Below the pieces are notes generated by a model. That model saw only the letters and a program-made list of their open reading frames with translations, did not search any database and had not been told where the DNA came from. 64,000 bases of DNA from assembly GCA_018402295.1 (NCBI GenBank), contig JAGYJI010000006.1, positions 186,001-250,000 of the forward strand, in the 5' to 3' direction. The DNA comes from Pontimonas sp. GTDB lineage: Bacteria > Actinomycetota > Actinomycetes > Actinomycetales > Microbacteriaceae. A program made the position numbers and the translations under genes. Positions 2,793-58,485 of this stretch are shown piece by piece (positions within the stretch are counted from its first letter, which is position 1; every line of letters begins with the position of its first letter).

Positions 2793-3245
2793 ATGACAAA
2801 GCTCATTTTGACTAACGAGGTCGCTGGTCTCGGCTCTGCCGGAGACGTTGTGGACGTGAAGAATGGTTATGCACGTAACTTCCTCATCCCTCAGGGTTTC
2901 GCCGTAGCGTGGAGCAACGGTGGCCAGAAGCAGGTTGACCAGATTCGCTCCGCTCGCGAAGCGAAGGTTATGGCATCCCAGGAGGAAGCACAGTCGCTGA
3001 AGGACCGGCTCGAGAAGGCGCCCATTGTGTTGAGCGCTAAAGCGGGTAGCGAAGGCCGACTGTTTGGGTCCATCACCCGCAACGACATTGCCGGGGCCAT
3101 TGAGGCCGCAGGAATCACCGGCGTTGACAAGCGCGCTATCGAAATCCTTAAGCCGATTAAGTCAGTTGGCTCGGCTGACGTCGTGATCAAAATTCACGAC
3201 GGAGTTATCGCCAACGTTACGCTTTCGGTAAAAGGGCAAAAATAG
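2793..3245 (+). CDS. rplI: 50S ribosomal protein bL9
   Basis: 150-residue bL9, which binds 23S rRNA and projects from the L1 side of the 50S subunit. The N-terminal RNA-binding domain carries the NGYARNFLIPQGFA signature (about residues 23-36), followed by the long connecting helix and the C-terminal domain. AGGAG upstream of the ATG supports the start. It is the last gene of the operon; a strong hairpin follows. Confidence 0.97.
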   Translation: MTKLILTNEVAGLGSAGDVVDVKNGYARNFLIPQGFAVAWSNGGQKQVDQIRSAREAKVMASQEEAQSLKDRLEKAPIVLSAKAGSEGRLFGSITRNDIAGAIEAAGITGVDKRAIEILKPIKSVGSADVVIKIHDGVIANVTLSVKGQK

Positions 3246-3261
3246 CGTATTTCTCTCTCCT

Positions 3262-3292
3262 GTGAAGGCTCCTCATCCTGAGGGGCCTTCAC
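3262..3292 (+). terminator. Hairpin terminator of the rpsF-rplI operon
   Basis: A 14-bp stem with a 3-nt loop: GTGAAGGC pairs perfectly with GCCTTCAC, then one T-G wobble, then CCTCA with TGAGG. It starts 17 nt after the rplI stop. There is no real U tract, as is common in actinobacteria. Confidence 0.75.
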
Positions 3293-3300
3293 CATTTAAG

Positions 3301-3540
3301 GGTTATTTCTCCACATAGAGGCTCTTACCACACCTAACTCTAAACCGGTGCTTTATACAGATTCCCACAGCGGGAAATGTAAGTTCTCAAACTCGGTAAA
3401 TGGTAATTTTTTTGGCAATATTGATTCAATATTGCTCACATAATCCCCATTTTATCCACAGGGCTCTCGGCGTTTCTCGACAATAGTGCACAGAGTTATC
3501 CACAGGCTCAATTGTGCCCGGGGAGCGGCATCTCTAGGGT
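3301..3540. other. AT-rich intergenic region with DnaA boxes upstream of dnaB
   Basis: This is the heart of the only gene-free gap above 300 bp in the window (3246-3673). It is visibly AT-rich compared with its neighbours and holds two perfect DnaA boxes TTATCCACA at 3452-3460 and 3496-3504, same orientation, 44 bp apart, plus a one-mismatch copy TTCTCCACA at 3307-3315. A run of seven Ts and an AT-rich inverted repeat lie just upstream of the boxes. It could be a DnaA-responsive dnaB promoter or an origin-like element. The remainder of the gap (3541-3673) shows no further signal except the dnaB ribosome-binding site. Confidence 0.55.
3415..3435. repeat. 21-bp AT-rich inverted repeat in the dnaB upstream region
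   Basis: Arms GCAATATTGA and TCAATATTGC are exact reverse complements around a single central T. It lies 16 bp before the first perfect DnaA box. It could be an operator, a cruciform or part of a duplex-unwinding element. Confidence 0.6.
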
Positions 3541-3673
3541 GAGAACAAGCTTTGAGAGCGGGGTCCCGGAGGGGCCACCGAGAGTCTCCCAGCAGTGTCG
3601 GTCGATGCTGATAGACCTAGGGGAGACACAACATAACTGCGTGCTTTTGCGCGCACAGAGGAGGGGGTGACGC

Positions 3674-5047
3674 GTGTCGATAGCTCAACTCGGCATTGTT
3701 CCTGACTCCCCGGCGGATCGCGGATATGGCGGTGACCGCACCCCTCCCCACGATGTGCTCGCAGAGCAAAGCACTCTGGGGGGAATGCTCCTGAGCAAGG
3801 ACGCTGTTGCCGATGTGATTGAGGCCGTTCGAGGCCGCGACTTTTATTTGCCCAAGCACGAAATCATTTTTGACGCGTTGCTCAACCTGTATTCGCACGG
3901 TGAGCCCACCGACGTCATTACAGTCTCTGAAGAGCTCACCAAGACGGGCATGCTGTCTCGAGCAGGTGGCGTTGACTATCTGCACACGATCGTGTCCGTG
4001 GTTCCGACAGCAGCGAGTGCGGGGCACTACGCAGCCATCGTGGCCGATAAGGCGGTTCTTCGTCGGCTTGTCGACGCGGGAACCCGGATAGCCAATATGG
4101 GCTACACCAGCGAGGGTGAGGTGTCAGACCTCGTCAACTCTGCCCAAACAGAGATCTATCAAGTTGCCGGTGGGGTCGAGGCCGAAGACTATGTGCCGCT
4201 CACCGAAGCTGTCTCTGCTGCGGTGGATGAGATTGAAGCGGCGCGGGGTCGCGACGGTGAGATGGTCGGTGTTCCCACCGGTTTTTCCGAACTGGATGGG
4301 TTGCTCAACGGGCTCCACCCCGGTCAGCTTGTGCTGATTGCTGCTCGCCCCGCTCTGGGTAAGTCGACTTTGGCTCTGGACTTGGCCAGGAGTGCCGCCA
4401 TTCGCTACAAGCAACCCACGATTTTCTTCTCTCTCGAAATGGGCAGGTCTGAAATAGCGATGCGTTTGCTCTCTGCAGAGACCTCGATTCCTCTGCAGAA
4501 ATTGCGCAAGGGAATGGTGGAAGCGCGGGACTGGACGACGATTGCCTCGACCCGGGGGCGCATCGAATCAGCACCGCTCTACATCGATGACAGCCCCAAC
4601 ATGACCCTGGTGGAGATTCGCGCCAAAGCTCGTCGACTGAAACAGCGAGTGGGACTCCAAATGATTGTCATCGACTACTTGCAGCTGATGACCGCCGGAA
4701 AAAGAGTGGAGTCTCGCCAGCAGGAAGTGAGCGAGTTCTCCCGTGCACTCAAGCTCCTCGCTAAGGAACTCCAGGTTCCGGTCGTGGCGTTGTCACAGCT
4801 CAACCGTGGTCCCGAGCAGCGCGCGGACCGCAAACCGCAGTTGAGTGACTTGCGTGAATCGGGATCCTTGGAGCAGGACGCCGATGTCGTGATTTTGCTC
4901 CATCGCGATAGCGCGTACGAGAAAGACACTCCGCGAGCTGGAGAGGCTGATCTGATTGTGGCCAAGCACCGTAACGGTCCCACCGACACTGTGGTCGTCG
5001 GGTTCCAGGGTCACTACTCGCGCTTTGCCGATATGCCCAAGGTCTAA
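3674..5047 (+). CDS. dnaB: Replicative DNA helicase DnaB
   Basis: Hexameric 5'-3' helicase that unwinds DNA at the replication fork. The 457 residues contain the N-terminal primase-interacting domain (VLAEQSTLGGMLLSKDA near residue 30), Walker A ARPALGKST near residue 223 and Walker B VIDYLQLM near residue 331, then the C-terminal SQLNRG motif. There is no intein, unlike many mycobacterial DnaB proteins. The GTG start has a GAGGAGGGGG ribosome-binding site. Confidence 0.96.
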   Translation: MSIAQLGIVPDSPADRGYGGDRTPPHDVLAEQSTLGGMLLSKDAVADVIEAVRGRDFYLPKHEIIFDALLNLYSHGEPTDVITVSEELTKTGMLSRAGGVDYLHTIVSVVPTAASAGHYAAIVADKAVLRRLVDAGTRIANMGYTSEGEVSDLVNSAQTEIYQVAGGVEAEDYVPLTEAVSAAVDEIEAARGRDGEMVGVPTGFSELDGLLNGLHPGQLVLIAARPALGKSTLALDLARSAAIRYKQPTIFFSLEMGRSEIAMRLLSAETSIPLQKLRKGMVEARDWTTIASTRGRIESAPLYIDDSPNMTLVEIRAKARRLKQRVGLQMIVIDYLQLMTAGKRVESRQQEVSEFSRALKLLAKELQVPVVALSQLNRGPEQRADRKPQLSDLRESGSLEQDADVVILLHRDSAYEKDTPRAGEADLIVAKHRNGPTDTVVVGFQGHYSRFADMPKV

Positions 5048-55723: not shown

Positions 55724-57280
55724 TCAGTCGATACGCTCCAGTGTCTCGGCTTGGGCATCATCGGCGCGACGGAATCGACGCCGCAGAGCGGCAAGAATTC
55801 CACCGCTGGCGAGCAACCCTGTTCCCAGCCCCCACCATGCACCAGCGCCCAGCGGTTCAGGAATCACAGGTCCCAGTTCTCCAGCGCTCCGGGGGACCCG
55901 CTCCAGGGATAGCGGCGACGGTGGCTCCACAATCGCGCCGGCGGGGGACGGCAGGATGAGGGGAATATCCAGGGTTTGAGTGACCCGAGCAGGGACGCGC
56001 ACTGGCGCCTCGGGCTCTTGAACCACTACCGGCACGGGAGACGATTCAGAGCTTTTTCCGGACGGGGTACTCGCCGCGGGGGCAGCGACTGTTGGTTCGG
56101 GTTCGGGAGCAGGGGGTGGTGCCGCGAGAACCGTCAGGGCCGCACTTCCAGACGACGGGCGTGAGAGCGATGTCACTCCGCCGTTATCTGTGCTGTGGGT
56201 GGAGGACCAGGTGAGAGCGTAGGTGCCAGGCGTCACAGTGGTGGGGGCGGTGAGCCTCACCTGCAGAGATGTCCCGGAATCCTGCGCTCGCTCCCAGGTG
56301 ACTCCGTCGGGAAGCCCCTGGATGTCGAGCGTTCTGGTCGTCGGTGGGGTGGGTGCCACATAGGGGGAGCTGAAATCAAGCAACAAGAGATCTGACTCGT
56401 CGCCATCAGCGGTGACGCTCCAGGTCGCATCGGTTGCGCAGGAGGTGATGCTCTCCCACACCTGACCGAAGACACCTCCCTGGGACCCAGCAAAGGAGGA
56501 AGCTGCGCTTGCCGAACAGGGGTCGGCATCAAGAATGCCGACCGTGATCTCCATGGTGAAGTCGATGGAGTCCCCGGGCAGCACGTACATGGTGGGGCTT
56601 CGGTCGCCATCGACGAGAGGTGTGTAGAGAGACTCCCCGCCTTCGAACGTTGCGGTGCCCGCAGCCGTGGTGACATGCAGAATGATCGTCGGGTGCACTC
56701 CTGAGGCATCGGTGATGATCACGCTCGATGTTCCGGCACCGGAATACACCGGGTCATAGCCCGCGGCGAGCTCTGCAATCCAGAACAGGCGTCGATTGAG
56801 TGCCGACTCGTCCCCCAGGGAGCGGTGGCGCATGGAGAAGCGCACCTGATTGCCGCTGAGGCTGATTGTTTTCTCGGTGTAAATCTGGTTTTGGGGGTTT
56901 GCGCTCAGGTATCCCGGTGTCGTCCACGATGACTCCCCTCCGGGGGAGGGATTCGATGTCCCGGGGTCTGGAGAGATGTCTCGACGTGTCTCCGTCTGAA
57001 CCGCGGTCGTCCACTCCACCCCCATCATGCCCAGTGACTCAAAGGCGGGTCCCTGCCAACCCTCGATTCCGGTGACGAAGTCCTTCTGTTTTCCACCGTT
57101 GAGAATTCCGAAGAAGTCATCGAATCCGGAGAATTCGATACTCGCGCTCTGGGGTCCGAGGGAGGTTGCTTGGCCAGGTGGCAGCCCCATCTGGGTGAGG
57201 CCTGCTCCCAGCAGAAGCACCCCCACCCACGATGTGGTGGTGGAAAAGGCGGTTGGTCGAGGTCGGGTCTGCTGTCTCAT
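55724..57280 (-). CDS. Large secreted, membrane-anchored surface protein
   Basis: 518 residues, no family recognised. An N-terminal signal-like helix (WVGVLLLGAGLTQMG), a beta-rich Ser/Thr/Gly ectodomain with one cysteine pair (about residues 255 and 278), an Ig-like stretch (LDIQGLPDGVTWE...LTAPTTVTPGTYALTWSS), a Pro/Ala/Glu-rich stalk (about 390-460), then a C-terminal helix (WWGLGTGLLASGGILAAL) and an RRRFRR stop-transfer. No LPxTG. Intact frame. It separates purF from purM and looks like an accessory gene. Confidence 0.6.
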   Translation of the reverse strand: MRQQTRPRPTAFSTTTSWVGVLLLGAGLTQMGLPPGQATSLGPQSASIEFSGFDDFFGILNGGKQKDFVTGIEGWQGPAFESLGMMGVEWTTAVQTETRRDISPDPGTSNPSPGGESSWTTPGYLSANPQNQIYTEKTISLSGNQVRFSMRHRSLGDESALNRRLFWIAELAAGYDPVYSGAGTSSVIITDASGVHPTIILHVTTAAGTATFEGGESLYTPLVDGDRSPTMYVLPGDSIDFTMEITVGILDADPCSASAASSFAGSQGGVFGQVWESITSCATDATWSVTADGDESDLLLLDFSSPYVAPTPPTTRTLDIQGLPDGVTWERAQDSGTSLQVRLTAPTTVTPGTYALTWSSTHSTDNGGVTSLSRPSSGSAALTVLAAPPPAPEPEPTVAAPAASTPSGKSSESSPVPVVVQEPEAPVRVPARVTQTLDIPLILPSPAGAIVEPPSPLSLERVPRSAGELGPVIPEPLGAGAWWGLGTGLLASGGILAALRRRFRRADDAQAETLERID

Positions 57281-57286
57281 TCTGGA

Positions 57287-57356
57287 AGGCTAGAAGCGAT
57301 CGAGGGGACCCCGTCAAAGTTATCCACAGCGGCCTGGGTGGGTGCTCCAGTAGACT
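57287..57356. promoter_or_regulatory. Divergent leaderless promoters of the surface protein and purM
   Basis: TAGCCT on the - strand (57287-57292) ends 6 nt before ATG 57280; TAGACT on the + strand (57351-57356) ends 6 nt before the purM GTG. A lone DnaA box TTATCCACA lies between at 57320-57328. Confidence 0.6.
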
Positions 57357-57362
57357 GATTTT

Positions 57363-58485
57363 GTGCCGGATTCCTCCCCCTATCGCTCGAGTGGAGTGGA
57401 CACCAGCGCCGGCGATCGCGCAGTGGAATTGATGAAAGCTGCGGTGACCAAGAGTCACTCCTCTCGCGTTATCGGTGGTGTCGGAGGATTTGCGGGACTC
57501 TATGACGCATCGTTCCTCACCTCCTACACGGCGCCGATTTTGGCGACCTCGACGGACGGTGTCGGAACAAAGGTCGCCATTGCTCAGGCGATGGACGTCC
57601 ACGACACCATCGGATATGACCTGGTGGGCATGGTCGTGGACGACATTGTGGTCGTGGGCGCAACCCCGCTGTTTATGACCGACTACATCGCCTGCGGACG
57701 TGTTGTCCCGGAGCGAATTGCCGCCATTGTCCGGGGTATTGCCGAGGCCGCAACGAGTTGCGGCGTGTCACTGGTGGGTGGGGAAACTGCCGAGCACCCG
57801 GGTTTGCTCGAACCGGACGAATACGATGTCGCCGGCGCGGCCACCGGGGTTGTCGAGGCAGATCAGATGCTGGACCCCAGCAAAGTTCAGCGTGGGCGAT
57901 GTGGTCATCGCGATGGCCTCCAGTGGGCTGCACAGCAACGGGTTTTCCCTGGTGCGCAAGATTGTGGCCGATCAGGGCTGGGATCTGCAGGCCACCAGGC
58001 CTGAATTTTCCCGGGAACTGGGTCTGGAGCTGCTCGAGCCCACCATGCTCTACACCTCCGCAATTCTTGAGCTCATGGCCACTCACCCCGGATCTCTGCA
58101 CATGCTGAGTCATGTGACAGGTGGAGGTATTGCGCAAAACCTTTCGCGCGTGATCCCGCGAGGTTTCGCCATCGATGTTGATCGCTCCACCTGGTCGCCA
58201 CCGGCTGTGATGCAGGTGTTGGCGGATGCGGGTGGGTTTACCCCGGGTCAGGTCGAGGACACCTGGAACATGGGAATTGGGATGGTGGCCGTGGTGGATC
58301 CTCCTCAAGCCTCAGCGGTGGTTGCGTCGCTGCATAAGTCGGGTCACCGGGCATGGCAGGTCGGTGTTGTTCGCGATGACGACGGAGACATGTCCCAGGA
58401 CGCCATCAGAAGCGCTAAAGGTGTTGAGGGTGGCGCAATCCGGTTAGTCGGAGACTACGCAGATTCTTCCTCGGCGTCGTCGTAA
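57363..58485 (+). CDS. purM: AIR synthetase, frameshifted
   Basis: Converts FGAM to AIR. TDGVGTKVAIAQAMDVHDTIGYDLVGMVVDDI and VGGETAEHPG are in the first frame; SVGDVVIAMASSGLHSNGFSLVRK and TGGGIAQNLSRV in another. One extra T in TT near 57886-57887 (KVSVGD) accounts for the break; about 373 residues repaired. GTG start without Shine-Dalgarno. Confidence 0.94.

Follow-up and report, generated by a model that had tools for sequence, protein, structure and literature searches.

Conserved DnaA boxes upstream of dnaB in Microbacteriaceae and a probable link between DnaA and replicative helicase expression

Long intergenic gaps that carry binding sites for the initiator DnaA raise the question of whether they start replication or regulate a neighboring gene. 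The gap between rplI and the replicative helicase gene dnaB in a Pontimonas-like actinobacterium presents this question in a compact form. It lies in the stretch of DNA analyzed here as a whole (64,000 nucleotides; G000:C6:186001-250000), which we call the window; the genome to which it belongs, G000, is incomplete (893,649 bases, 59.75% complete), and its closest named records include Pontimonas, of the family Microbacteriaceae. A preliminary description, made from the sequence of the window, had noted DnaA boxes in this gap and proposed that it might be either a replication origin or a site of DnaA-controlled helicase expression. On the basis of the sequence comparisons described below, we consider it likely that the gap is the dnaB promoter region and that it is under DnaA control.

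The gap is 428 bp long, and Pfam supports the identity of both flanking genes, rplI (2793-3245) and dnaB. Its length is typical of the family, in which 71 of 72 rplI-dnaB gaps measure 395-546 bp and one (L119) measures 2684 bp. It had been described as AT-rich, which is accurate in a relative sense, with 50% AT compared with 41% for the surrounding 5-kb stretch, but not in an absolute one. A hairpin directly downstream of rplI, with counterparts at the matching position in several relatives when the aligned rows are compared by eye, probably marks the end of rplI transcription despite having no clear T run. A generic scan of the gap for sigma-70 promoters and terminators returned a single candidate of each type, and in both cases it lay on the opposite strand. 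A search against Rfam gave two candidates, mir-4657 and COG2827, which scored far under their gathering thresholds and were taken as chance matches. The features discussed in the text are collected in Table 1.

Table 1. Positions of features in and around the rplI-dnaB gap, numbered from the first base of the window
Feature	Position	Strand	Basis
rplI-dnaB intergenic region, putative control region	3246..3673	+	ORFs; Pfam on both flanking genes
Hairpin with 14-bp arms directly 3' of rplI	3262..3292	+	Inverted repeat I2
Upstream DnaA-like box TTCTCCACA	3307..3315	+	Box search
AACTCTAAACC, window variant of the conserved AACCCTCAA-like element	3336..3346	+	Alignment rows
Slot B2, degenerate TAATCCCCA	3441..3449	+	Slot positions
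Slot B3, DnaA box TTATCCACA	3452..3460	+	Box search and slot positions
CGGCGTTTC between B3 and B4, strongly conserved in Microbacteriaceae	3468..3476	+	Alignment rows
Slot B4, weak box TAGTGCACA	3484..3492	+	Slot positions
Slot B5, DnaA box TTATCCACA, adjoining the putative promoter	3496..3504	+	Box search and slot positions
Inferred main promoter: -35 TTGTGC (3512-3517), 17-bp spacer, -10 TAGGGT (3535-3540)	3512..3540	+	By eye
PafBC-type promoter-like element TGTCGG-N10-TAGACC	3596..3617	+	Motif from PMC8151990
dnaB, replicative helicase, GTG start	3674..5047	+	Pfam DnaB N and C domains

The individual elements that had been reported for the gap were all recovered: two perfect boxes 44 bp apart on the same strand, the near-match further upstream, a run of seven T residues (3407-3413), and a perfect 21-bp AT palindrome, GCAATATTGATTCAATATTGC, with 10-bp arms (3415-3435). 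The palindrome has no counterpart in the 16 other genus-level rows compared, among which some genomes are probably represented twice, and is missing even from a locus whose dnaB is 98% identical; it is probably incidental.

Could the boxes simply have arisen by chance in somewhat AT-richer DNA? Across the window as a whole, boxes with one mismatch are not enriched (8 observed versus 6.4 expected), as a chance origin would have it, and looser boxes matching TTNTCCACA number 43 genome-wide in G000 versus 18 for the reversed control, and 70 versus 51 in G001. Single boxes therefore carry little weight, and the signal is to be sought in the cluster. When the gap was shuffled with its dinucleotide composition preserved, 74 of 20,000 shuffles contained at least one exact box and none contained two. 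Our own genome, incomplete as it is, holds 14 exact boxes versus 3 matches to the reversed pattern, and places two exact boxes within 200 bp of each other only in the rplI-dnaB gap and in the gap between dnaA and dnaN. Together with the conservation across the family described below, these results leave a negligible probability for the chance explanation: the DnaA boxes upstream of dnaB exceed chance. Elsewhere in the window, a lone exact box lies at 57320-57328, 34 bp before an ORF at 57363 on the plus strand that by eye resembles purM, with a divergent ORF on its other side starting at 57280.

To follow the gap across Microbacteriaceae we used 80 named loci, of which eight without rplI in the retrieved stretch (L054, L063, L097, L106, L108, L120, L124, and L126) were dropped, leaving 72 gaps; the 2684-bp gap was trimmed to its last 600 bases, and 18 genus loci (L017-L034), most of which seem to repeat L047-L061, were excluded from the family counts. 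All 14 genus-level gaps (L047-L061 minus L054) carry TTNTCCACA on the dnaB strand, as do 50 of the 58 other gaps of the family, and the remaining 8 lack it. The family set is uneven in that Cryobacterium contributes many rows. The 72 gaps contain 29 + 101 = 130 such sites on the dnaB strand and 0 on the opposite strand. On the dnaB strand the reversed pattern matches 0 + 9 times, and shuffles yield 0.17 and 0.82 sites on average. The upstream box in the window also has a counterpart in most of the genus-level gaps, 11 of the 14 having TTNTCCACA at a matching distance of 340-372 bp ahead of dnaB. Thus, the expectation under which the proposal would have fallen, that the boxes are not conserved before dnaB in relatives, is contradicted across the family.

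Beyond their presence, the boxes share a geometry. They form a rigid, head-to-tail array of five slots, B1 to B5, at positions -67, -55, -44, -12, and 0 relative to B5. This arrangement emerged from 70 loci aligned on the last box-like site; L064 and L090, which do not even have TNNTNCACA near dnaB, were left out. In these loci NNNTNCACA occupies the slots at -67, -55, -44, and -12 in 33, 44, 53, and 39 cases, and the next best offset within 120 bp upstream of B5 is found in 4 loci. When box-like sites were compared without an anchor in the 58 loci outside the genus, their most frequent spacings were 55, 67, 44, 12, 32, and 23 bp. In 800 sampled pairs, identity averages 0.66 in the box columns and 0.38 elsewhere, a difference to which B5 makes an inflated contribution because it set the register. 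Since steps of 11-12 and 32 bp come close to an integral number of helical turns, the boxes may all lie on about the same face of the DNA. In the window, B1 is not box-like and overlaps the palindrome. A genome-wide search of 60 family genomes for CGGCGTTTCNCNCA yielded 38 places in 27 genomes versus 13 for the reversed pattern; G000 and G001 are without a match, as their copies deviate from the pattern. Between B3 and B4 lies CGGCGTTTC, which in the family ranks with the best-conserved parts of the gap outside the boxes, and we know of no protein that reads it.

Outside the family the boxes persist in a looser form. The order- and class-level pools gave a match in 69 of 79 and 74 of 98 genomes, and from these 60 loci were hand-picked to spread families, avoiding dnaB genes matched only C-terminally; after four Microbacteriaceae were excluded, 56 remained. 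In the 450 bp ahead of dnaB, 29 loci carry TTNTCCACA on the dnaB strand (40 sites) and 12 carry it on the opposite strand (18 sites), compared with shuffle means of 0.28 and 0.14; the other 27 loci have no forward copy. Three windows of 450 bp further upstream at the same loci contain 2 sites in total, although they are an imperfect control because they are probably mostly coding. Neither the five-slot geometry nor the fixed promoter distance is retained in these loci. Some actinobacterial dnaB genes match only N- or C-terminally within long open frames of about 640-1,550 aa, a pattern that points to inteins inserted in the helicase domain.

An alternative function for such a cluster, and one that had been put forward for this gap, is that of a chromosomal replication origin, whether main or secondary. 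Beyond the boxes, the AT-richer stretch and the helicase gene nearby would suit an origin, as would a AACCCTCAA-like element that certain genus-level genomes also have in their oriC gap. Yet dnaA (C6:172311-173711, minus strand) and dnaN (C6:170810-171955, minus strand), both supported by Pfam, lie on the same contig. The 355 bp between them contain two exact boxes and a near box, and dnaN is about 17.7 kb from the dnaB start. The cumulative GC skew within C6:80001-290000 (210 kb) has its minimum at C6:171764, whereas the rplI-dnaB gap lies at C6:189246-189673 and has positive skew in the 5-kb blocks on either side, so that no switch occurs there. Of the checks proposed for the gap, the GC skew and the position of dnaA-dnaN thus place a canonical oriC, with its boxes and the local skew minimum, elsewhere, and the origin reading is not borne out. 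Nor does the shared element do much for it: among 28 oriC gaps, only 6 contain it in the matching orientation and 1 in the reverse, and none of the 56 class loci has it ahead of dnaB. Overall, we regard an origin in the rplI-dnaB gap as very improbable.

The AACCCTCAA-like element itself lies towards the 5' end of the gap. Of the 72 family gaps, 57 match AA[CG][CGT][CT]TCAA on the dnaB strand and 1 on the opposite strand, compared with 5 sites across 86.4 kb of control sequence from the dnaB side; the copy in the window does not match this pattern. In several genus-level genomes the element also stands beside the oriC box pair (L013 12285). A further exact box at C6:173796 (L013 13796-13804), about 85 bp upstream of dnaA, fits autoregulation of that gene.

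If the gap does not start replication, it may instead set the expression of dnaB, and here the position of the array is informative. In 58 of 70 family loci (13 of 14 genus-level), a TANNNT hexamer follows the start of B5 at a distance of 39-41 bp, whereas the second most frequent offset over the 110 bp searched accounts for 4. In the window this -10-like hexamer would belong to the promoter given in Table 1, with transcription predicted to start near 3547, which would put the center of B5 some 47 bp ahead of it. What is conserved in Microbacteriaceae is therefore the box slots, their one-sided orientation, their spacing, and their distance to a -10-like hexamer, and through the slots, the orientation, and the fixed distance the earlier suggestion of DnaA-controlled helicase expression gains indirect support. 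Against this reading, B1 and B2 are degenerate in the window, some gaps of the family lack TTNTCCACA, the geometry is lost outside the family, and the putative promoter is not among the sites of the generic consensus scan. Even so, DnaA probably binds at the gap.

A second element nearer dnaB resembles the PafBC (RecA-NDp) promoter motif, TGTCGG-N10-TA-N3-T in PMC8151990, and the window copy fits it save for the missing final T. Of the 70 family loci, 54 carry TGTCRG-N10-TA on the dnaB strand no more than 130 bases ahead of dnaB, and 0 carry it on the opposite strand; within 300 bases of dnaB it appears in 17 of 56 class loci, versus 0. Two adjacent ORFs with WYL domains on contig C4 of our genome are probably PafB and PafC, a naming that rests on these domains and on a gene order before tatC that we take to apply here, tatC itself having been named by eye. 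According to PMC8151990, dnaB is still over-expressed in M. tuberculosis with recA deleted and pafBC silenced, which counts against a role for PafBC.

DnaA could in principle repress dnaB rather than activate it. This is a special case of DnaA control, so its probability overlaps that of the reading we favor, and we hold it to be unlikely though worth serious consideration. The exact box before dnaA recalls autoregulation by DnaA, which a review reports for several bacteria (PMC8203912), and a repressor at dnaB would be in keeping with it. B5, however, is upstream of the predicted -35 and covers neither it nor the -10, and a published DnaA mutant effect (PMC7738170) indicates activation. Activation of dnaB by DnaA is thus most likely the direction of any such control.

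A different possibility is that the array acts mainly as a DnaA sink or a control of DnaA state near oriC, in the manner of datA, DARS, or the Streptomyces clusters, tuning the timing of initiation, with its position before dnaB of secondary importance. Several boxes do lie close to oriC, since dnaN and dnaB are 17-67 kb apart in 21 of 22 genomes that have both on one contig (14 chosen genomes, seven genus-level genomes, and one outlier, G083), and steps of 11-12 bp may suit cooperative assembly of DnaA. But a sink would need neither boxes confined to one strand nor a fixed distance from a -10-like hexamer, both of which are found in Microbacteriaceae, and the window array retains only two perfect boxes. 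In the outlier, a member of Microbacteriaceae (contig C5), dnaB lies 240 kb from dnaN, yet the boxes persist before dnaB (L130). The DnaA variant I282T, which lowers dnaB expression in M. tuberculosis (PMC7738170), likewise argues against this view, and we judge it quite improbable. A hybrid of these ideas, in which the array would be an oriC-like platform for DnaA assembly that sets helicase supply while competing with oriC and in which a second protein would read CGGCGTTTC, seems to us rather unlikely.

Our results can be considered alongside what has been published for mycobacteria. In PMC7738170, in vitro enrichment with M. tuberculosis DnaA recovered five regions (oriC, Rv0010c-Rv0011c, Rv0057, Rv3843c-RVnc0040, and rpmH-dnaA), of which the Rv0057 region is upstream of dnaB, and ChIP-seq in M. 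smegmatis found the homologues of the same five regions bound by DnaA in vivo, including that upstream of dnaB. The I282T variant binds this region more weakly and uniquely under-expresses dnaB (PMC7738170). The preliminary description had held that DnaA control before dnaB would be unexpected in actinobacteria; binding there had in fact already been reported, in M. tuberculosis and M. smegmatis. The two sites have in common that they precede dnaB in an actinobacterium and are bound by DnaA there or carry its boxes here, and the oriC and rpmH-dnaA regions that are bound in mycobacteria correspond to places where exact boxes occur here. Whereas binding has been demonstrated in mycobacteria, the boxes here are known from their sequence, and whereas the mycobacterial region bears the name Rv0057, the space from rplI to dnaB here shows no gene. 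Our comparison establishes the five-slot geometry for Microbacteriaceae and did not include mycobacterial loci by name.

Other systems offer partial parallels. The dnaB gene of Caulobacter likewise has predicted boxes and belongs to the DnaA regulon (Hottes 2005, per the review PMC8203912); the DnaA-dependent expression is that of Caulobacter, a distant lineage that we liken to ours by description and not by sequence comparison. Clusters of DnaA boxes outside oriC also include datA and DARS of E. coli, from which the present array differs in adjoining a promoter at a fixed distance. The same likeness and difference apply to Streptomyces, which has DnaA-box clusters outside oriC, although our literature search turned up no paper on them. 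Our search of the literature on DnaA binding upstream of dnaB found only PMC7738170, and found no evidence of DnaA binding or DnaA-dependent expression for Pontimonas or Microbacteriaceae. The matches listed, as titles and beginnings of abstracts, included no description of a five-slot array, which is weak evidence of novelty because only open-licence literature was covered. To that extent, no earlier account was found of the rigid array of Microbacteriaceae, the distance between box and promoter, or CGGCGTTTC between B3 and B4.

Considering these observations together, we can outline how DnaA control of dnaB might operate. DnaA would bind tightly at B5 and B3 and in a cooperative manner at the weak slots, and the resulting short head-to-tail assembly would end about 47 bp upstream of the transcription start. 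From there it could contact RNA polymerase, most likely activating dnaB, and helicase supply would thereby follow active DnaA. The PafBC-type element nearer dnaB may add a second promoter responsive to DNA damage.

Our findings suggest that DnaA boxes before dnaB are not peculiar to mycobacteria. The array is sharply defined, its boxes can be mutated one by one, and it includes a conserved element between the boxes. Given the fixed slots across Microbacteriaceae and the presence of boxes in about half of the other loci sampled in the class, the link between helicase supply and the initiator may be an ancient one in this class of bacteria.
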